From positions 1 through 46,560 of the forward strand of contig JAHJFD010000044.1 in the NCBI GenBank assembly GCA_018825145.1: 46,560 nt of DNA, in the 5' to 3' direction. Numbering within the stretch: the first letter of the stretch is position 1; every line of letters starts with the position of its first letter. The notes below the pieces were generated by a model that saw only the letters and a list, made by a program, of their open reading frames with translations, had not been told where the DNA came from and did no database searches. A program made the translations under genes and the position numbers. Source of the stretch: Patescibacteria group bacterium (GTDB lineage Bacteria; Patescibacteriota; Gracilibacteria; UM-FILTER-43-11). Below are positions 3,674 to 39,702 of this stretch, in pieces.

Positions 3674-4221
3674 TCAGTTTTTCAGCCGTTCTTTCTTCGC
3701 TTGCTTCGGCAGGTAATTGTCCTTTGAAATTATACTTCGCCCAAGTTCTTTTTCTGTTGCTTCTCTCGCTTTGCCTGCCACAGAACCGCCTCGTTTCGCT
3801 ACCTTTGCATTTGATGGTATTTCTTTTGGCTTTTCTTTCTGTGAGATCTCAGTTGTCACCCTTTCGCCCAGCATAGTAAAGATTAATTCAAGATCAGTCA
3901 TGTTATCCCGTAGATTTGCTTTGGATTTAGTCGGGATATTTTTGTAACTTTTGTACTCGCCTGGAGTCATGCCGAAAGTTGCCCTGGAAATTTCTGCTTT
4001 CCATCAATAGCCTTCATCTTCAACTGTCGACAAACTGTCGACGGTTCAAACCCATCATCTTCTTTAACGCGAATTTTCATTTTATACCAATAATCACGTG
4101 AATTCTCACTGTCGGTAAGAGCACCGATCACATCTATAACAGAAAACCACCATTCATCATGGTGCCAGATTCGGCGTATATGTTTGGATTGAAAAAGAAT
4201 AAGTTTGCTGGATTGATTCAT
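3674..4221 (-). pseudogene. Bro-N (phage antirepressor-like) gene, internally deleted and frameshifted
   Basis: Two overlapping frames encode the two ends of one recognisable protein. The first (3967-4221) is a Bro-N N-terminus: RIWHHDEWWFSVIDVI, then the usual tyrosine/tryptophan segment, up to an LKMKAIDGK region. The second (3674-3970) is the family's conserved C-terminus: FGMTPGEYKSYK, NLRDNMTDLELIF and RGGSVAGKAR. Reading upstream of the second frame's ATG gives a family-like ATFG, showing that this ATG is internal. Intact relatives, as I recall them, are about 270-290 residues. Here roughly 100-120 central residues are missing and the junction also shifts frame, so translation stops soon after the N-terminal domain. 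The promoter survives and resembles that of hicAB. A short Bro-N fragment could still be made. Confidence 0.8.
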
Positions 4222-4248: not shown

Positions 4249-4277
4249 ACTCTAGTAAACAAATGTTCACTAGTCAA
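4249..4277 (-). promoter_or_regulatory. Promoter with palindromic operator upstream of the Bro-N pseudogene
   Basis: Minus strand: TTGACT (complement of 4272-4277), 17-nt spacer, TAGAGT (complement of 4249-4254). An 18-bp near-palindrome at 4254-4271 fills the spacer and differs at only 2 positions from the perfect palindrome in the hicAB promoter (26876-26893). A shared repressor is inferred. Confidence 0.65.
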
Positions 4278-6720: not shown

Positions 6721-7154
6721 GGGGATGTATTTGGTTTTGACGTTAATGATTTAAGTTAATTGATGGCAATCCAGGCATCGCGCTGTCTGCCTGCCAATTA
6801 GCCCAGCGCATTATAAGTGCAAATACTTATAGATCTTTAGCTGCTTCTGCAAAACGAATGGCTGCAAGAGTTTCGACTCCTGCTTTCGTTCCTTTTTTTG
6901 CTTAAATAGCTATTACGCCCCGCTGAGCGGGGCTCGTCTTGCATAGCGACACCTGCTGACTGTGTAAGGCGTAATTTAGCAGGTTAAGCCCCGACGACGC
7001 CTTTGGAGGTGTCGGGGTCGAAAAAATAACCCAGATAGGCTAAGTCGCTTTTGTTCGTCTTTATGGCTTAGATGAAAATTCTAAACGAACTATGATTGTA
7101 GAGGTTTATTGACTTCATTTTCGGACCCCGGTTCGACTCCGGGCATCTCCACCA
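6721..7154 (+). ncRNA. ssrA: Transfer-messenger RNA (tmRNA)
   Basis: The 5' end GGGGATG pairs with CATCTCC at the 3' end to make the tRNA-Ala-like acceptor stem. The T arm (CCCGG-TTCGACT-CCGGG) and an encoded terminal CCA are present. With the ArfB-like protein it rescues stalled ribosomes and tags the nascent chain. The resume codon is GCA at 6819-6821. The tag frame runs through ANTYRSLAAS..., ends VPFFA, and stops at TAA 6903-6905, giving 28 encoded residues instead of the usual 8-15. A GCCCCGC/GCGGGGC hairpin follows the stop, then pseudoknot-like GC-rich segments. The total of 434 nt is long for tmRNA. The tag end resembles the FA-ending tags of mycoplasmas more than the common LAA end. 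Confidence 0.95.
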
Positions 7155-8273: not shown

Positions 8274-11200
8274 CTAACTTCCGCAACTTAGTTTTAGCAG
8301 GCTCAGCCAGTCGGGTGCCTGAACTTTTGTCTGAATTCCGCTCACCAGGCCAAAGATATTGGCCAGTTCCATCAATGTGATCTGATCTTCCTCGATCTGG
8401 GATTCCTGAATTTTTCCCCAGTTCTGCTGGAAGGTGATAACGTCAAGGAGGTCCACGCCGTAAAGCCCATCCAGGTTACTTTCGTTCCAGAGTTCGGGCT
8501 GCTCGGAAATCAGTTTGCCCCAGGCAAGGATGTCATTTATGTCGATAACATCGTTGGATTCGTCAAAATTGCCGTATCGGAACTGACGATCGTAGGCAAG
8601 GTTGAGGTGGGCTTTGTAACCGCCTCCTGTTTTGGGCTCAGCGGCGTTTAGAGTAACCGCGGATACCTTTGGCAAAACGTAACTTTGATTGGCCAGCTTT
8701 ATTTTGATGGTGTACTTAGCTCCCGCACTGAACTGTCCCAGGTTCATGTTTTCTATTTCGCCGAAGATATTGGTTTTTCCGTTTGTCTGATATACCTGAT
8801 TTCCTGACGAATCGTATACCTGAATGCTCAGCTCAGCCGCGTGTGAATTATCTTTGAAATAGGCTTCAACTTTGTCTTTGACGTCCTGAGAGCACTTTGG
8901 AATGCCGGCGCACATGATCAGTTCTTTCTCCGTGTCACTGAATTCGGAAAGATTTTTGTTAAGGTCCAATTTGGCCAGCCCGCTATCCACTAATTTGAAG
9001 ATGGCGGTTGTGTCAGTAAGTTCACTATTTAGCTCTTCAATAACAGGTTTCATGTATTGATCGATGATCACGGTGTCGCTTTCCGTGTCGTTGAGTTTCA
9101 GCGCGATCAGCAGGGGCGGAATGATGTTGAGCCGTTTTGCCTGTAGCTTAGAGCTCAGTTCAGGACCGCCATGGCAGGCCAGAATGTAATTCATCACATT
9201 GTCACTATTTATGTCGGCATTACTCAGGTTTACTCCGGCCTCGAAACAACTGAGTGTTCCGTTGTTTTCCGGGGCAGTGGTTATTTGGCCCGAAGCTGAA
9301 ATTGCCTTGTTATTTTTTTTGGCCGCCTGCACCAAAGCCTGCAATTTTTCCATAAAAAGAATATCGTAGCCTTTTTTGATTTTCACTTTGATATCGGCGT
9401 CCACGTCTATTCCTGTTCCCGGTTTTAATTCGGGATTGATATAAGCGTTACCTGTGGAACCTGTTTTTGATTCACACGCTGTTTGGGTCACCAGATAGTA
9501 TTTGTGGTTTTTGACGCGGCCGGTCGTGTTCAGCGGCACCGTTTCATCAATGTACGAAGTGAAAACCGGATTTTTTATCGTATGAATCAATTTTCCATCA
9601 CGGTAAATCATCAGGGTGAGATCATCAGAAGTCCCCTGAGAAACCGGATTATAGTGAGCGTTGTAGTAGTCACTGAAAGTATCTTTGTAAGCTGTAGCGC
9701 CGGAGAGAGATTTTTCGACGTTCAGAAGTTCATTGATATACTTCAGAACCATTTTTTCCGCATCTTCCTGAACACCGGGATCATCCATCATTCTTTCAAT
9801 GGCCTCCAGCAATACACCTGAAGTATCTTCGTCACATACCTCATTTTGTTTCACAGTTTTCTGAATCAGGTCAAATCTCGCGTCGTTCACGGATTGCATC
9901 AGGCTTAATTTGTAGGCCTCTTTAAGACAGCTTTCGATTTTTTTGACGATATCTGTTTTGAAGAAAACATCTTTGAATTCCTGAAAGGCGCTGTCGGTTT
10001 GGTAAAAGTCAATAATGCTCTGAATCTTGTAATTGTTCGCCCAGCTGAAAAGCAGAGCGTTTATATCTGACTTCAGACTGCCGACGGTACTGTCCATAAA
10101 ATTCTGATCCGCTTTCAGAGCGTTTAATTCTTCGCCAATGCTTCCTTCGTTTTTTATTTTCGCGAGTGAATCCTTCAGCTGTTTGTCGTATTTTCCGTAC
10201 ACGCTGTTTTTTTTGCCGGGGACAAAATCATCCAGCGTCAGGCCAGCCGTTACTTTGCTGACGCACTGCGCCGCCTTGGATTCCTGAGGGCTTTTTTTGA
10301 TTTCAAGTAAATTTTTGAGCAGGGTTCCAATGAACTGCTTGTAGCTGAGCGGCTGGGGCTTGAGCGCTGAGGAAACGGAAGACATAAAGATGTCCGCCAC
10401 CGCCTTGCTGTTTTTGAGTTTATCGACTGTCAGGTACGCCCACCAGTCGGAAAAATAATCATTTTTCTGGCCGATGCCAATGGAATTCAGAATATCGAGG
10501 ACCGGTTTTCCCTGGCTGTCAGACACAGCCCTTAGGTAATCCTCAAACGCGTTTATCAGGCCGTCGTCGCCGGAGTCATAAATCTGCTCGTACATATGCC
10601 GCGTAAATATGCCTTTCAGAATTTTTCCGGTACCGTCCAGTTCAGGCGTCGGGCTTTGTTTCAGGTAATCGAAAAAAATCTGAATTTTATTGGCTGTTGC
10701 CGCGTCACGAGCCTGAGCGTTGTCCCATCTGAGTTCTACCACTGATCTGCCGTCCTGATGCAGGACATTAAGTTCCGGTGGCAGGTCCAGTTTGGCGGGA
10801 TATTTGGTACAGGCCGCTCCCGCCCCGCCGCCACCCGCAGCTGACGCGGTAAGGTCGTCGAAATACTGCATGTAGAGGTCCATGTCGAAAGCCGGTGTTT
10901 CATCCTGACAGACAACCACCACGCCCGTGCCTCCGTCAGAGATCATTATTCCGTTTATCCCGTCTATACCGGCGCCGCTGGTTATGTTTATTCCCTCTCC
11001 GGCAAACTCAACACTGCCGTCGCTGGCAATATGCTGAAGTTTGTTAATCGGCCACGCTCCCCCTTCGTAGCGTGCATAAAGAAAATACGCGCCGCCATTA
11101 CCGTCCGATTGCGCCGTGCTTCTGTCAGCGGTAACAAACCAGTCTGTCTGTCCATCCGCGGTGTCAGAAAGTGCTATTGGGGCCGCCGCCCAGTTGCCTG

Positions 11201-12341
11201 TCGCGTCAAGCGCGCCCGCGGAGGTTATGTGATGAGCGTATATGTCATCAGTCGCGCCGCCGGCCGTATGCCAACCAATAATAGCTCCGCCACTGCCATC
11301 CGAGGCTATTCTTGGCTGACCGATGTAGCCATCAATATTGGTACTGCTCGCGATGACACCGGTACCCCATTGGAGGGCTCCCGCGCTGTCTATTCTTTGC
11401 GCTTCAACTGAAGTTGGTGATCCGAACGGACCGCTTGCAAAGCCAACGATTACCCCCCCACTGCCATCGGCAATAAGGTGCCTGCCAAGATTACCGTTAC
11501 CGTTCGCGTCAATTTCCAGGGGTGTGCTCCATGGCGCTCCGGCCATGACGCCGATTGACGAGAACTTAGTTGCCGCGAAATAAAAGGCAAGCAAACTGCT
11601 TTCATATACGGCCACTACGTTTCCGGCACCGTCGTCTACGATATGGGCGCTATTTTCTCTAGCGCCGGGTACTGATTCCGGGAACTGGACATGCCTGAAT
11701 GGACCTCCTCCGGCCACATTCCAGGTGGGATCCACAACCCCACCGGATGTAACACGTGTAATATAAAGTTCTCTTGTTAGAGAAGTGTCAGGATTCGGGC
11801 CTCCGTCTCCCCAAGCCATATAAAATCCTCCTGACCCGTCCGGAATCATCTGCATGAAGGATTCACAAGTGCCAAGACCATTGGTTACGTTTAATCCGCC
11901 GAATGGGAATTGTATAGTTCCGGTTGAGTCCAGTCGCTGAATAAATATGGCACAAACTCCACCGCCAAAATCCATATTCGTGGCAACATATGCACCTCCG
12001 CTGGTGTCCGGGATAATTGCGGTTGGTGCATCAAAAAGAGCAATGATAGGAGTGCCGCCATTCCACGCTGCCACAGCGGAGCCATCGGCAGCTGAAAACT
12101 TCTGCACATAGGATCTTCCCGTTAAGCCGTAAGCAACAATGTAGTCTCCATCACTTGTCTGGGTAATATATTGTGTATCTTCGGTGGCCACTGTGTTAGC
12201 CACGACTATATCACTTGGCGCCGCGGTGCTCGGCCAGACCCCCTGGGTAGCCGCGAAAGCTGACTGACAAAGAAACAACACACTGCACGCTGTAGCCAGC
12301 GCTGTGATAATAAAAGGCTTCGTGGTTCCTCGAATTTGCAT
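8274..12341 (-). CDS. Giant secreted protein: beta-propeller-like repeats and a C-terminal dockerin-like pair
   Basis: A 1355-residue protein with a clear signal peptide (residues 1-30, cleavage after AFA). Residues about 40-490 contain eight repeats of a DGSGGxY-type turn followed by a hydrophobic strand, suggesting a beta-propeller. Residues 500-900 are mostly helical with several cysteines. Residues about 1180-1245 look like a small beta domain. The C-terminus (about 1257-1311) has two Asp/Asn-rich calcium-loop-like helices, GNFDESNDVIDINDIL and SNLDGLYGVDLLDVI, resembling a degenerate type I dockerin. It is probably exported and surface-associated, binding a cohesin-like partner or calcium; no cohesin is seen here. 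No catalytic domain is recognised. Same strand as the amidase but separated by a hairpin. Confidence 0.75.
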   Translation of the reverse strand: MQIRGTTKPFIITALATACSVLFLCQSAFAATQGVWPSTAAPSDIVVANTVATEDTQYITQTSDGDYIVAYGLTGRSYVQKFSAADGSAVAAWNGGTPIIALFDAPTAIIPDTSGGAYVATNMDFGGGVCAIFIQRLDSTGTIQFPFGGLNVTNGLGTCESFMQMIPDGSGGFYMAWGDGGPNPDTSLTRELYITRVTSGGVVDPTWNVAGGGPFRHVQFPESVPGARENSAHIVDDGAGNVVAVYESSLLAFYFAATKFSSIGVMAGAPWSTPLEIDANGNGNLGRHLIADGSGGVIVGFASGPFGSPTSVEAQRIDSAGALQWGTGVIASSTNIDGYIGQPRIASDGSGGAIIGWHTAGGATDDIYAHHITSAGALDATGNWAAAPIALSDTADGQTDWFVTADRSTAQSDGNGGAYFLYARYEGGAWPINKLQHIASDGSVEFAGEGINITSGAGIDGINGIMISDGGTGVVVVCQDETPAFDMDLYMQYFDDLTASAAGGGGAGAACTKYPAKLDLPPELNVLHQDGRSVVELRWDNAQARDAATANKIQIFFDYLKQSPTPELDGTGKILKGIFTRHMYEQIYDSGDDGLINAFEDYLRAVSDSQGKPVLDILNSIGIGQKNDYFSDWWAYLTVDKLKNSKAVADIFMSSVSSALKPQPLSYKQFIGTLLKNLLEIKKSPQESKAAQCVSKVTAGLTLDDFVPGKKNSVYGKYDKQLKDSLAKIKNEGSIGEELNALKADQNFMDSTVGSLKSDINALLFSWANNYKIQSIIDFYQTDSAFQEFKDVFFKTDIVKKIESCLKEAYKLSLMQSVNDARFDLIQKTVKQNEVCDEDTSGVLLEAIERMMDDPGVQEDAEKMVLKYINELLNVEKSLSGATAYKDTFSDYYNAHYNPVSQGTSDDLTLMIYRDGKLIHTIKNPVFTSYIDETVPLNTTGRVKNHKYYLVTQTACESKTGSTGNAYINPELKPGTGIDVDADIKVKIKKGYDILFMEKLQALVQAAKKNNKAISASGQITTAPENNGTLSCFEAGVNLSNADINSDNVMNYILACHGGPELSSKLQAKRLNIIPPLLIALKLNDTESDTVIIDQYMKPVIEELNSELTDTTAIFKLVDSGLAKLDLNKNLSEFSDTEKELIMCAGIPKCSQDVKDKVEAYFKDNSHAAELSIQVYDSSGNQVYQTNGKTNIFGEIENMNLGQFSAGAKYTIKIKLANQSYVLPKVSAVTLNAAEPKTGGGYKAHLNLAYDRQFRYGNFDESNDVIDINDILAWGKLISEQPELWNESNLDGLYGVDLLDVITFQQNWGKIQESQIEEDQITLMELANIFGLVSGIQTKVQAPDWLSLLKLSCGS

Positions 12342-25839: not shown

Positions 25840-26233
25840 ACCTGGGTCTTTTGACTCACTGATGGAAGAATATACCAGGCCAGAGGATATCGAGGCCGCT
25901 TTAGCGGAAAAAAGAGCTTCGAAAGAAGCCGGCCCCAAAAGCACAGGTGAACTTGTCAAAGACTATCCTCGTCCGCAACGTGAAACTGATCTGCATGGCA
26001 TGACCAGCTCGGAGGCTATGTTTGAACTGGAGAGTTTTATCAACCGGTCCATTCAGCAACGGATCCGGACGGTGCGGGTGATTACTGGTAAAGGCCTGCA
26101 TTCCCAGAACATGAAGTCGGTACTCCCTGAGATGACGGAGGGAAAGCTGGCGGAACTGCGTCGGGCGGGTAAGGTATTGGTTTTCAGACGTGAAAAGACG
26201 GGCGGGTCGTTTGTGGTTTACCTGGTTTCATGA
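25829..26233 (+). CDS. Smr-domain protein
   Basis: 134 residues. The Smr domain has DLHGMTSSEA (from residue 54) and the ITGKGLHS loop (about 85-92), the two signatures of this endonuclease-like fold found at MutS2 C-termini and as stand-alone proteins; nicking or RNA-cleaving activity is known for relatives. The N-terminal 45 residues are charged and probably flexible. It overlaps the rdgB end by 11 nt, and its own 3' end overlaps that of convergent hicB by 16 nt. Confidence 0.88.
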   Translation: MPNKPGSFDSLMEEYTRPEDIEAALAEKRASKEAGPKSTGELVKDYPRPQRETDLHGMTSSEAMFELESFINRSIQQRIRTVRVITGKGLHSQNMKSVLPEMTEGKLAELRRAGKVLVFRREKTGGSFVVYLVS

Positions 26234-26640
26234 ATTCGATTCACCCTTAACTCCGCCCCCATTATTCCCAAAAGTTTCACGAATTGTTCTATGCCAGGCA
26301 TACGTCGCCCTTGTTCGTACTGAGCGTAGGCATTTTTGCTTTTGAAACCACAGGCATGACTGACTTCTTCAATTGTTTTCCGGCTGGCAGTGCGTAGGCA
26401 ACGAAGGATTAAAGGAATGGCCAAGCGATCTTCAGCTATTAATATCAAGTCTCCTGACTGATCTGTCATTGTTTTTACTTCAATTTTCTCGTCAAAATAA
26501 GCCAGGAACATTGTTTCCAATAGATCTTTGACCATTAATTTTGCCTCTTTTTTTGTCCTGCCTTGAGTCATGGCATCAATTTCCTTTATTTCTGCAAGGT
26601 AGAACCTGCCATCTTTTGTGAATGTCGGTTTAAACTCCAT
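26218..26640 (-). CDS. hicB: HicB-type antitoxin with C-terminal HTH
   Basis: 140 residues. The N-terminal HicB fold (about 1-50, DGRFYLAEIKEIDAMTQG, then a KKEAKLMVKDLLETM helix) binds and inhibits HicA. A C-terminal XRE-like helix-turn-helix (about 86-130, TIEEVSHACGFKSKNAYAQYEQGRRMP) should bind the operator. It overlaps the hicA 3' end by 11 nt. It probably autoregulates through the 18-bp palindrome at 26876-26893, and perhaps also the Bro-N promoter at 4249-4277 (inference). Confidence 0.9.
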   Translation of the reverse strand: MEFKPTFTKDGRFYLAEIKEIDAMTQGRTKKEAKLMVKDLLETMFLAYFDEKIEVKTMTDQSGDLILIAEDRLAIPLILRCLRTASRKTIEEVSHACGFKSKNAYAQYEQGRRMPGIEQFVKLLGIMGAELRVNRIHETR

Positions 26641-26821
26641 AATTTCGGGGGTTATCTTTTGCTATTCGTATTATATTCTTGGCCAACCATTCGCTGATGT
26701 CATTATGTCTGGGTATGCTTTTATAGACCTCTCCGTTAGTCCAGAAGTCATGGTTGGTACCATGCCCCTTAAAATACCATCCATTTTCTTTAAGTCTTCT
26801 TAGAAGTAATTTCCTCTTCAT
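26630..26821 (-). CDS. hicA: HicA-type mRNA interferase toxin
   Basis: A 63-residue double-stranded-RNA-binding-fold toxin that cleaves mRNA. The catalytic His is in GHGTNHDFW (H24), and the conserved IPRHNDISEWLAKNIIR segment follows. The toxin gene precedes the antitoxin, which is usual for hicAB. Translation start is the ATG at 26819-26821, about 43 nt after the predicted transcription start. Confidence 0.92.
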   Translation of the reverse strand: MKRKLLLRRLKENGWYFKGHGTNHDFWTNGEVYKSIPRHNDISEWLAKNIIRIAKDNPRNYGV

Positions 26822-26870
26822 ACAAATTTTACATCAATTGATATACAACGTCAACTCTTTCAGGTGTTTG

Positions 26871-26899
26871 ATATTAGTGAACATATGTTCACTTGTCAA
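26871..26899 (-). promoter_or_regulatory. hicAB promoter with perfect 18-bp operator in the spacer
   Basis: Minus strand: TTGACA (complement of 26894-26899), 17-nt spacer, TAATAT (complement of 26871-26876). AGTGAACATATGTTCACT at 26876-26893 is a perfect palindrome filling the spacer, so a bound dimer would block RNA polymerase. Confidence 0.8.
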
Positions 26900-36029: not shown

Positions 36030-36060
36030 ATTTAGATAATTTTTGAAAAAACAAAAATAC

Positions 36061-39000
36061 ATGGCAATCGGTAAAAAAGACAAGGGCGGGCGGTACGATG
36101 ACAAGGACACCAATGATGAAACTTCTGATGTACCTTTTGATATTAATGATTTGAACAAGGTTCCGGGGCCGGAGGAAGGGGTTGAAAGGCCCGAGGATGT
36201 TGTTACACAGACGCGAACTGATGTCACCGAAGACCTGGCTGGACGAACTGAGAGCGGTGATAATATTAAGAACCTTTCTGAAGCTATACGAAAAGATGAG
36301 CTTCTGGACATTGTTTTCTTCCACGGAAGTCCTGTTAAGAAACTCAAGAAAAAGGGCTATAAAATATCCAAAAAAAGCGAACTTAGCAAAATTGTTGATG
36401 AAATTCTTGCAACTTCTGACGAGCATGAAGAAGCCAAAAATAAAGGTTACACACCGGCAAAGAGCCTTACTGTGGCCGCTCTGGATCAGCATGGTTTTGA
36501 GTCTGATATGCTGCCGGATTTTGCCGATATGCTTGATGAACGTTTAAAAGAACAAACTGAAAAGGCAAAAGAACCTGCGACACCTGCACCTACTCCGACG
36601 ACTCCAGAACCTGCTCCTGCTCCTAAACCCGAACCTGTACCGACTGCGAAAGCTAAAGCGCCTGAGGCTGTCACTGATGATGAGATACTGCAGGCTGCAT
36701 TGAAACGAATAGAGGCATTTACGGACATCAAGTTATTTGAAAAGTTTGTTTACCAACGACTGCACGCGGACAAGCTCATCAAGAAAGACAAAAGACCTGA
36801 CTGGTCTGTCACCCCGGTTGAAGGATTTAAGGGGTCGGAGGCTCTGTGTAAAGCGGTTATGGCCAAAAAGGCCGAGCTTTCTACCAAGAAAAAGACCGCG
36901 GAACCTGCTCCTGCACCCACTCCTGAACCGACTCCTACGCCGGAACCACCTGTTGGTGCCGCCTCCGAAAAAGAGGCGCTTGATGGCCTAAGCCAGTACT
37001 TAAACAATCTGACGGAAGGGCAAACTGCCCTGGAAGACCTGCGTAAGCGGCTCGAACAAATTTTTGAAATACTCAGAACAGATCCTTCAACGTTTTCTGA
37101 AACAGACAAGGATTACCTGACTGATATTCAAAAAGAAATGGAGGCGGTACTTTTATCCGAACTTCCAAAAGTGGCCGAAGGCATTGGCTCACCTAAAAAT
37201 ATGACTGAATTGCTTGCGGCACTTAGGGCTCCGGGTAAGCTCCGTCGGAATAAAGCGGCCATGACAGCGCTCAATTCGGCCCTGAAAGGCGACGCTGAAT
37301 TCGCGGAAATCATTGAGGATTTTTACCGAATCACCGGAAAGGAGCCTGCAGTCGCCGCGGAAGAACCTTCTGCCGCTCCGGAAACTGTTCCTGAGCCGAC
37401 TGATATACCTCCATCGTTGGCCTCCGCGATTAATGCGGCCGCAGCCGGTGATGACATCAAAAAAAGGAAACTTCATTTTTTATGGCGGGTCTATAAAGGC
37501 GAAGCATCATTTGCCGACGGGACGGATCCTGAACCTGTGAAGACGCTTATAATGATTGCCCTTGATCAGGCTGAAAATCTAAATGTACCTCAAGATGAAG
37601 TGGTCGATACTCTGAATCTGGCGCTGAAAAAGGCGGGCATGCTGGAAGCCTCTGAGCCGAGTGCACCGGCTCCGACTCCGACACCTCCAAGTGCACCGGC
37701 TCCGACTCCGACACCTCCAAGTGCACCACCCGCCGCTCCGACTCCGAGCACAACGCCCGCACCTCAGCCTTCCGCAAGCCCGCAGGCATCGGTTAATGCA
37801 GGTGCTCAAAGACGTGCACCTGAATCTTACGCGACCAAAGAAATACAGACACAAGCCATTAACACCTTCATGACCAACATGGGCTTTCCCAAAAGCAACA
37901 AGACTCCGGTGGTTATGGCTATAAGAAGTGTTCTGGGCGCATGGGTCACAGGACCCTCTATTTTGACCGGACTTGAAGCCTATTTAAAAACCGGCCACGA
38001 AGCTGATGAAATCGAGCGGTTGGCCAGAAATAATTCCGAAGAAGACCTGAAGAAACAACTGCATGGCATGGCGGGAGAATTAGCTGGTCTGAATCAGCAG
38101 ATTGAGGAAATTAAACGCTATAACCGCCTGAGGTATACCAGTACCCGGACCCATGTAACCCATTCTGTTGAAGCCAAAGCACTGGCCGAAGGTCATCCGC
38201 TCAAAGAGCTACAGTCTATGCAACATAGCGCGGCTGGTGAATTTGCCCTGAATGAAATTCAGCTCAAGCGTGTTGCCGCGAATATGGCTAAGGAAGACGC
38301 CGAGCCGGACAGCGATGAAAAGAAGGCAAAGATGGAGAAACTTGAGAAAGAATTCTCTGAACTTACCGCAAAAAAATCCGAACTGGAGGCAAAAAGAAAA
38401 TACCTTGCCGAAGCGCTGGTCATTTTGTCCGAACAAGCCACACCTGTAACAGAGGAAGATGCTGAAACCCGCGGCAAAAAAATCCGTGAACTTGAAGAGC
38501 AGAAGAGCAAACTTGATGAAAGGAAACGCAATACCGAAAAGGCGATTGCTAAAAAAACTGAATTGAAAGATGAGGAACCCCTGAGATACAGCCGGGAACC
38601 TGAAAAGCTTCTGAGTATGATCAATTTTTATTTTGCCCAACAAGGTAAAGCCGCGAATAAAAAGCCTGATTATGTCCAGATTCTGAACAAAACTCAGGAG
38701 CAGATTGAAGCGACCAGAAGAAAAGAAGCGGGTAAATTGAATTGGGTATGCAACCGACTGCTTCCCTGGAATTATCTGAAGCCATTACTTACTTCGACTC
38801 TTGTCGCCATTTGTGAAAAAGATTCAGCCCTTACTAAAAAGGTTCCCCCCGAAAAAGCCAAGGAACTGGCTAAGGCATGGGATAACTCGGAAAGTGTCAA
38901 TAGCTGGATCAGCGGTCTGGGAATTCCTGAAAAGGAAGCGATGGAAACTGTTGTGCCTAAACTGATTGCCCATCTGGCCATTGTTACCAACACCGGACGC

Positions 39001-39702
39001 ATGGCTAATATAAATTCGATTTCGCTCAACCGGGCCAAAGCTCTGCTTAAAAAAATGCGTCACGCGGTGCATGAATACTCAATCAAGCATGCCGAAAGAT
39101 CCACCTCAAAAAAGAGCATAGACAGAATGGGTGCTTACTTCACTCAATATAATCAGATTAATGATAATGCCAAAGCGCAGGAGAGTATTGTCGTCGGGAA
39201 TTCAAGGAAAGTCATGGCTCGAAATGCCTTTATCGCGGGGGGAATCGGAGTTGGGGCGGTTCAGATTTTAAGTCTTAGCGGAATAGCCCTGGGAGGCGCC
39301 GGATTAGCAAGCGCCGCCGGTATAATGACGGGGGCCAGTCTGCGGGTGAAAGATCCAAAGATTAAGGAATTCTTACGCAAAGCCTCTGTAAGAACCCTTG
39401 TGGGCGGCGGTTTGGGGGCTTTGGCACTGGGGGCAGCGAGTCCTTTTGTGGCCGCGCCGCTTGGTTTGGCGGCTCTTGGCGGCGTGTTTAGTCCGGAAAT
39501 ATGGAAGAAACGAAAAGAAATTGCGGCCGCTACCAAAAAACATGGTCCGGGGGCCCTTCGGACAACCGGTAAAGTCGGATATGTCGGAGCGCGGCTTGGC
39601 TGGGCCGCCACGGGAATACTTCTTTCATGCGGTGTATTAATGCTCAGTAGTCGGTATCGCAATCTTTTTGGAATGCATTTCCGCCCTTTACTAGGTAAAT
39701 AA
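36061..39702 (+). CDS. Giant Pro-rich/coiled-coil membrane-associated protein, unknown
   Basis: About 1213 residues from ATG 36061; an in-frame TTG at 36043 is possible. The N-terminal half alternates small acidic helical modules with linkers of Ala-Pro-Thr-Glu repeats (near residues 180-200, 285-305 and 545-580). Modules near 140-175 and 500-535 share a K-S/T-L...ALDQ...D...L..LK pattern, so they are probably duplicates. Residues about 680-860 are a long charged coiled coil. After a helical domain with LPWNYLKPLL, the C-terminus (about 1055-1200) has three Gly/Ala-rich hydrophobic segments, probably in the membrane. No signal peptide and no enzyme motif. First of four consecutive genes of unknown function; a structural or scaffold role is a guess. 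Confidence 0.65.
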   Translation: MAIGKKDKGGRYDDKDTNDETSDVPFDINDLNKVPGPEEGVERPEDVVTQTRTDVTEDLAGRTESGDNIKNLSEAIRKDELLDIVFFHGSPVKKLKKKGYKISKKSELSKIVDEILATSDEHEEAKNKGYTPAKSLTVAALDQHGFESDMLPDFADMLDERLKEQTEKAKEPATPAPTPTTPEPAPAPKPEPVPTAKAKAPEAVTDDEILQAALKRIEAFTDIKLFEKFVYQRLHADKLIKKDKRPDWSVTPVEGFKGSEALCKAVMAKKAELSTKKKTAEPAPAPTPEPTPTPEPPVGAASEKEALDGLSQYLNNLTEGQTALEDLRKRLEQIFEILRTDPSTFSETDKDYLTDIQKEMEAVLLSELPKVAEGIGSPKNMTELLAALRAPGKLRRNKAAMTALNSALKGDAEFAEIIEDFYRITGKEPAVAAEEPSAAPETVPEPTDIPPSLASAINAAAAGDDIKKRKLHFLWRVYKGEASFADGTDPEPVKTLIMIALDQAENLNVPQDEVVDTLNLALKKAGMLEASEPSAPAPTPTPPSAPAPTPTPPSAPPAAPTPSTTPAPQPSASPQASVNAGAQRRAPESYATKEIQTQAINTFMTNMGFPKSNKTPVVMAIRSVLGAWVTGPSILTGLEAYLKTGHEADEIERLARNNSEEDLKKQLHGMAGELAGLNQQIEEIKRYNRLRYTSTRTHVTHSVEAKALAEGHPLKELQSMQHSAAGEFALNEIQLKRVAANMAKEDAEPDSDEKKAKMEKLEKEFSELTAKKSELEAKRKYLAEALVILSEQATPVTEEDAETRGKKIRELEEQKSKLDERKRNTEKAIAKKTELKDEEPLRYSREPEKLLSMINFYFAQQGKAANKKPDYVQILNKTQEQIEATRRKEAGKLNWVCNRLLPWNYLKPLLTSTLVAICEKDSALTKKVPPEKAKELAKAWDNSESVNSWISGLGIPEKEAMETVVPKLIAHLAIVTNTGRMANINSISLNRAKALLKKMRHAVHEYSIKHAERSTSKKSIDRMGAYFTQYNQINDNAKAQESIVVGNSRKVMARNAFIAGGIGVGAVQILSLSGIALGGAGLASAAGIMTGASLRVKDPKIKEFLRKASVRTLVGGGLGALALGAASPFVAAPLGLAALGGVFSPEIWKKRKEIAAATKKHGPGALRTTGKVGYVGARLGWAATGILLSCGVLMLSSRYRNLFGMHFRPLLGK
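37661..37720 (+). repeat. 30-bp tandem repeat coding a Pro-rich linker
   Basis: Two identical 30-bp copies (37661-37690 and 37691-37720) plus a partial third encode SAPAPTPTPP units in the giant protein. Slippage could vary the linker length. Confidence 0.9.

Follow-up and report, generated by a model that had tools for sequence, protein, structure and literature searches.

An SOS network of Patescibacteria was published in 2017 (Sanchez-Osuna, Barbe and Erill; doi 10.1111/1462-2920.13826). In Bacillus subtilis and other Gram-positive bacteria, including Mycobacterium, the motif of the SOS repressor LexA is GAAC-N4-GTTC (PMC3323433), and lexA, recA and dinB have been defined as the core SOS genes (PMC8565304). 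LexA control has also been described for toxin–antitoxin (TA) loci of Escherichia coli (yafNO, dinJ-yafQ, symE, tisB and hokE; PMC2814082) and for antirepressors of the Salmonella Gifsy prophages (PMC3121763). DinD of E. coli is SOS-induced and has been reported to take RecA filaments apart (Uranga 2011, cited in PMC4786428).

We analyzed a whole 46,560-nucleotide stretch of patescibacterial DNA (46.6 kb, hereafter the window) in which a broken Bro-N gene and a hicAB module are preceded by similar operator-like sites. Both sites are very probably binding sites of LexA, which would place hicAB and the Bro-N gene in one damage-response regulon. The features concerned are as follows.

3674..4221, minus strand: broken Bro-N (DinD-like) gene, with an N-terminal piece at 3967-4221 and a C-terminal piece at 3674-3997 in another frame
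4249..4277, minus strand: Bro-N promoter, with TTGACT at 4277-4272, a 17-nt spacer filled by the box and TAGAGT at 4254-4249
4254..4271, minus strand: putative LexA-type SOS box in the promoter of the broken Bro-N gene, AGTGAACATTTGTTTACT; 26.3 bits, second best in the window
26218..26640, minus strand: hicB-like antitoxin gene with a C-terminal HTH_3 domain (4.3e-06), adjoining hicA
26630..26821, minus strand: hicA toxin gene (Pfam HicA_toxin, 4.1e-07)
26870..26899, minus strand: hicAB promoter, with TTGACA at 26899-26894, a 17-nt spacer containing the box and TAATAT
26876..26893, minus strand: putative LexA-type SOS box in the hicAB promoter, AGTGAACATATGTTCACT, a perfect palindrome; 29.1 bits, best in the window

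The two boxes are identical at 16 of 18 positions, confirming the match reported in the first-pass annotation, and at three or fewer mismatches the pattern occurs at only these two places in the whole window, compared to an expectation of 0.05 from shuffled sequences. Both occupy the 17-nt spacer of sigma-70-type promoters. The common spacing, -35 element and -10 box claimed earlier hold for both promoters, except that the hicAB -35 element is TTGACA and not TTGACT. The shared TATTG (CAATA) and T-rich flank is real but is simply the -35 neighborhood read on the complementary strand, and it contributes little. Elsewhere in the window, ARAGORN predicted an unusually long tag peptide of 28 aa for the tmRNA gene at 6721-7154, and two very large ORFs at 8274-12341 (1355 aa) and 36043-39702 (1219 aa) gave no Pfam match at 1e-5.

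The center of the box, GAACATATGTTC, corresponds to the GAAC-N4-GTTC LexA motif; this core is exact in the hicAB site, and the Bro-N site carries GTTT in one half. Because the center is the Gram-positive LexA motif, the same word was predicted to precede recA and lexA, where it was indeed found: the lineage motif precedes core SOS genes in the sense of PMC8565304. A scoring profile was built from 37 recA, radA and lexA boxes only, with no Bro-N or hic site in the training set. When all window positions were scored with it, the two sites took the top two ranks (29.1 and 26.3 bits), and the third-best match reached 7.6 bits. LexA bound to a box filling the -35/-10 spacer would block the promoter; upon DNA damage, activated RecA would trigger self-cleavage of LexA at the Ala-Gly bond, and expression would start. 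Such LexA binding and damage induction at the window sites are predicted from sequence.

The assembly to which the window belongs is of the metagenome type (1.16 Mb in 67 contigs, 93% complete). A genome-wide search for the motif, of the sort the first-pass annotation had suggested, returned 17 convincing sites, against two matches per strand for the reversed pattern; with one mismatch allowed, the motif gave 16 matches and its reversed form none. Nearly all boxes fill the spacer that separates TTGAC (or TTGAT) from the -10 element, so the 17-nt spacing is common to the set in general. The genes preceded by a box are listed below.

recA (L008), radA (L001) and an rmuC-like gene (L014)
C5-methyltransferase-like gene adjoining vsr (L004)
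DUF488 gene (L010) and NYN gene (L009)
higBA (L003), a PemK/MazF-type gene (L002) and hicAB of the window: TA genes
three ORF6N genes (L005, L011 and L016)
four Bro-N genes, three intact (L012, L013 and L015) and the broken gene of the window
RhuM gene (L017)

Bro-N, ORF6N, RhuM or TA genes account for 11 of the 17 targets, and hicAB and the Bro-N/DinD-like gene would be two of about 17 targets of a single damage-response regulon. No LexA was detected in this assembly with Pfam LexA_DNA_bind, Peptidase_S24 or an alignment of the family LexA proteins. In both congeners, gmk lies immediately upstream of lexA1, and in the window's own assembly gmk runs off contig C65, whose end truncates it after 72 codons; lexA1 therefore most likely falls in an assembly gap, a true loss of the gene with its regulon remaining being less likely.

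The motif was present in all 18 genomes searched from the same GTDB family (1 to 16 matches per strand with one mismatch allowed, and none for the reversed control), and 40 genomes from other families of the class gave at most single stray matches, which is background level. Within the family it repeatedly precedes recA and radA and also two LexA paralogues, LexA being encoded in most of the searched relatives, both congeners included. LexA1 (192 aa) is usually found in the order of two boxes 30-31 bp apart, a small membrane-protein-like ORF and lexA1, while LexA2 (190 aa) has one box upstream. Both paralogues contain Peptidase_S24 (2.4e-28 and 8.7e-27), the Ala-Gly cleavage site, the GDSM serine and the TVK lysine. 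Their N-terminal part matches Pfam LexA_DNA_bind weakly, which fits a lineage with a motif of its own. Weak LexA_DNA_bind matches at two other places in relatives (G010:C21 and G012:C130) were rejected as ORFs that adjoin a secA-like gene and are HrcA-like by eye.

A different S24-type or phage-like repressor could in principle read the motif, SOS genes included. The undetected LexA in the own assembly would suit this proposal, and since the family has two LexA paralogues, the motif may be recognized by several proteins. However, both paralogues have the full self-cleavage anatomy of LexA together with autoregulatory boxes, and what then separates the two accounts is mainly which LexA-type protein binds. 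We consider a non-LexA repressor very unlikely, and LexA remains the preferred regulator.

Several further features of these relatives were recorded. The ORF of 64-78 aa between the double box and lexA1 in most family genomes has one hydrophobic N-terminal segment by eye (L072:2333-2569, L074:7418-7609, L083:752-952, L084:1182-1391, L087:718-918, L089:1217-1411 and L090:1107-1307) and its position makes it a candidate for an SOS division inhibitor, comparable to YneA or SidA by analogy only. The ORF after lexA2 reads by eye as DNA polymerase IV, a layout that recalls umuDC (L097, L098, L099 and L091), and the lexA2 copy of congener G002 (L100) contains internal stops. In some relatives, recA has two upstream boxes 30 bp apart (L069, L070 and L071).

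Autoregulation is frequent among HicB-type antitoxins. The site lies within the hicAB promoter and an HTH is present in the hicB-like protein, features in keeping with binding of both sites by HicB, which the first-pass annotation had tentatively named as regulator; the Bro-N gene would then have been drawn into TA autoregulation. Where the site occurs makes this highly improbable. Eleven HicA matches were examined across the 18 family genomes, and a site within 400 bp occurs only at the window's own locus; the other 10 loci, including those of both congeners, have none within this distance and score like random sequence. Family genomes without a site before hic nonetheless carry the motif before recA, radA and lexA, and the profile that detected the window sites had seen no hic or Bro-N site. 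A HicB operator is rejected on this distribution, in which 0/10 other HicA loci but recA, radA, lexA and many non-TA genes are positive. Because the site is missing at the other 10 HicA loci, it does not belong to the hicAB module as such; the hicAB module of this genome is instead one that has come under a predicted LexA box. Of the earlier proposal, a single operator type for the two genes stands, making their shared control, present or past, plausible, while HicB as the regulator was not borne out and the bare hic loci count against it. Both genes almost certainly belong, or belonged, to the damage response and are not linked through the antitoxin.

The Bro-N gene of the window is decayed, as had been noted. 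Its two pieces match the family profile with 94.5 and 141.3 bits, the remnant at 3967-4221 matching Pfam Bro-N with an E value of 0.007, under the curated cut-off, and about 96 internal codons are missing. At the orthologous locus of congener G001 (Patescibacteria group bacterium isolate OFTM208, L109), a box precedes an intact 277-aa Bro-N gene, which has on one side a tRNA gene that neighbors an RF-1-domain gene and on the other a glycosyltransferase-like gene. Given this intact counterpart with the same box, the window gene was broken by a deletion of about 295 bp, which splits it into two frames; the Bro-N box would be what remains of an SOS promoter whose counterpart in the congener is intact. 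The site itself is preserved, at 26.3 bits. In an ungapped alignment anchored on the box, the promoter regions of the window and G001 are 49% identical, and their longest identical run, 18 nt, covers 17 of the 18 box bases (p ~1e-4). That the similarity of the window sites reflects a duplicated promoter segment or chance, with no operator, has a practically negligible probability: the TATTG and T-rich flanks do resemble each other on visual inspection, but the shuffle expectation and the 18/18 positive family genomes refute it statistically, and the motif is an isolated conserved block whose flanks have diverged.

The C-terminal piece differs from the congener by 0.152 at non-synonymous sites, compared to 0.150 between intact copies (synonymous sites are saturated), and the N-terminal piece shows a larger difference of 0.261. 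The first-pass annotation had offered either recent decay or another use of the site. Since the divergence of the C-terminal piece equals that of intact pairs, the decay is probably recent and another use need not be assumed; the loss of about 295 bp, as read from the assembly, would be a late event.

Intact Bro-N genes of relatives also carry the motif. Of the 12 Bro-N genes in the family, seven have a box 49-58 bp before the start and five have none; among the seven are the intact congener copy and all four copies in the window's own genome. Among 80 related Bro-N genes from a wide genome collection, the box was found only at that of the congener; the 79 homologues outside the family, archaea included, are without the motif, which rules out an operator specific to Bro-N genes. 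Close Bro-N relatives (50-63% identity), with no box, were seen on archaeal contigs (L118-L160) in many metagenome-assembled genomes of DPANN and other archaea. The wide occurrence of this DinD-like family suggests spread by horizontal transfer.

Intact Bro-N copies of 271-279 aa have an N-terminal Bro-N domain (4.7e-10 to 2.4e-06), as does the 274-aa DinD of E. coli (1.5e-07). A profile of 79 relatives of the window gene found the C-terminal region of DinD, at residues 144-244 (hmmsearch, E 9e-05, Z 4000). Direct comparison by hhalign gave an E value of 0.0025 at a probability of 12%, and pairwise BLASTP between Bro-N and E. coli DinD gave no match, the similarity being visible to profiles only. 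Since the relation is distant and escapes BLASTP, 'DinD-like' denotes a resemblance and not a proven function. The genes share with dinD the N-terminal Bro-N domain, the length, the C-terminal similarity and SOS control, which is predicted for the patescibacterial genes; they differ in that sequence similarity is distant (21% identity in the alignment) and that the patescibacterial copies are known from sequence alone.

In the family as a whole, 14 of 21 ORF6N genes have a box and seven have none (L215-L235); several boxed ORF6N genes adjoin genes for cysteine-rich zinc-finger-like proteins. A literature search returned no paper pairing ORF6N with LexA. The supposed TA–antirepressor link is replaced by a concrete predicted SOS regulon in an uncultured patescibacterial family, in which genes commonly taken for phage remains (Bro-N, ORF6N and RhuM) recur under predicted damage control. 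A more tentative reading, to which we would give somewhat less than an even chance, is that this regulon has been largely taken over by phage-regulator-like and TA genes, Bro-N and ORF6N proteins acting as chromosomal damage-response effectors and hicAB, higBA and PemK imposing growth arrest after damage. If so, Bro-N and ORF6N proteins would either modulate RecA in the manner of DinD or free other genes from repression as antirepressors, and cells with genomes of about 1.2 Mb would undergo TA-imposed arrest after damage. Should the DinD resemblance be functional, it would suggest a role for a Bro-N family that is widespread in many bacterial and archaeal genomes.

No new mechanism is required by the regulon. 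LexA boxes, LexA-controlled TA loci, LexA-controlled antirepressors and a Patescibacteria SOS network were already known; what appears new is the make-up of the family regulon, with its many phage-regulator-like and TA targets (11/17 in the own genome and 14/21 family ORF6N genes). The network of Sanchez-Osuna, Barbe and Erill concerns the same superphylum and regulator and is likely of the same kind. Gram-positive LexA regulons (PMC3323433) share the core half-sites, their spacing, an autoregulated lexA and targets such as recA and a polymerase-IV-type gene, whereas the family described here has a longer consensus, AGTGAACAWWTGTTYACT, a weak LexA_DNA_bind match, two LexA paralogues and numerous phage-regulator-like targets. 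As in the Gifsy prophages, an antirepressor-type gene would lie directly under LexA, although the Gifsy antirepressors are small and reside inside prophages, while the Bro-N genes here have no obvious phage neighbors in the stretches read. The first-pass annotation thought a regulatory link between TA and Bro-N genes new; LexA control had already been described for TA loci (PMC2814082) and, independently, for phage antirepressors (PMC3121763). In E. coli, too, TA modules stand under SOS control; hicAB is not named among these loci, whereas here hicAB, higBA and a PemK-type gene all carry a box.
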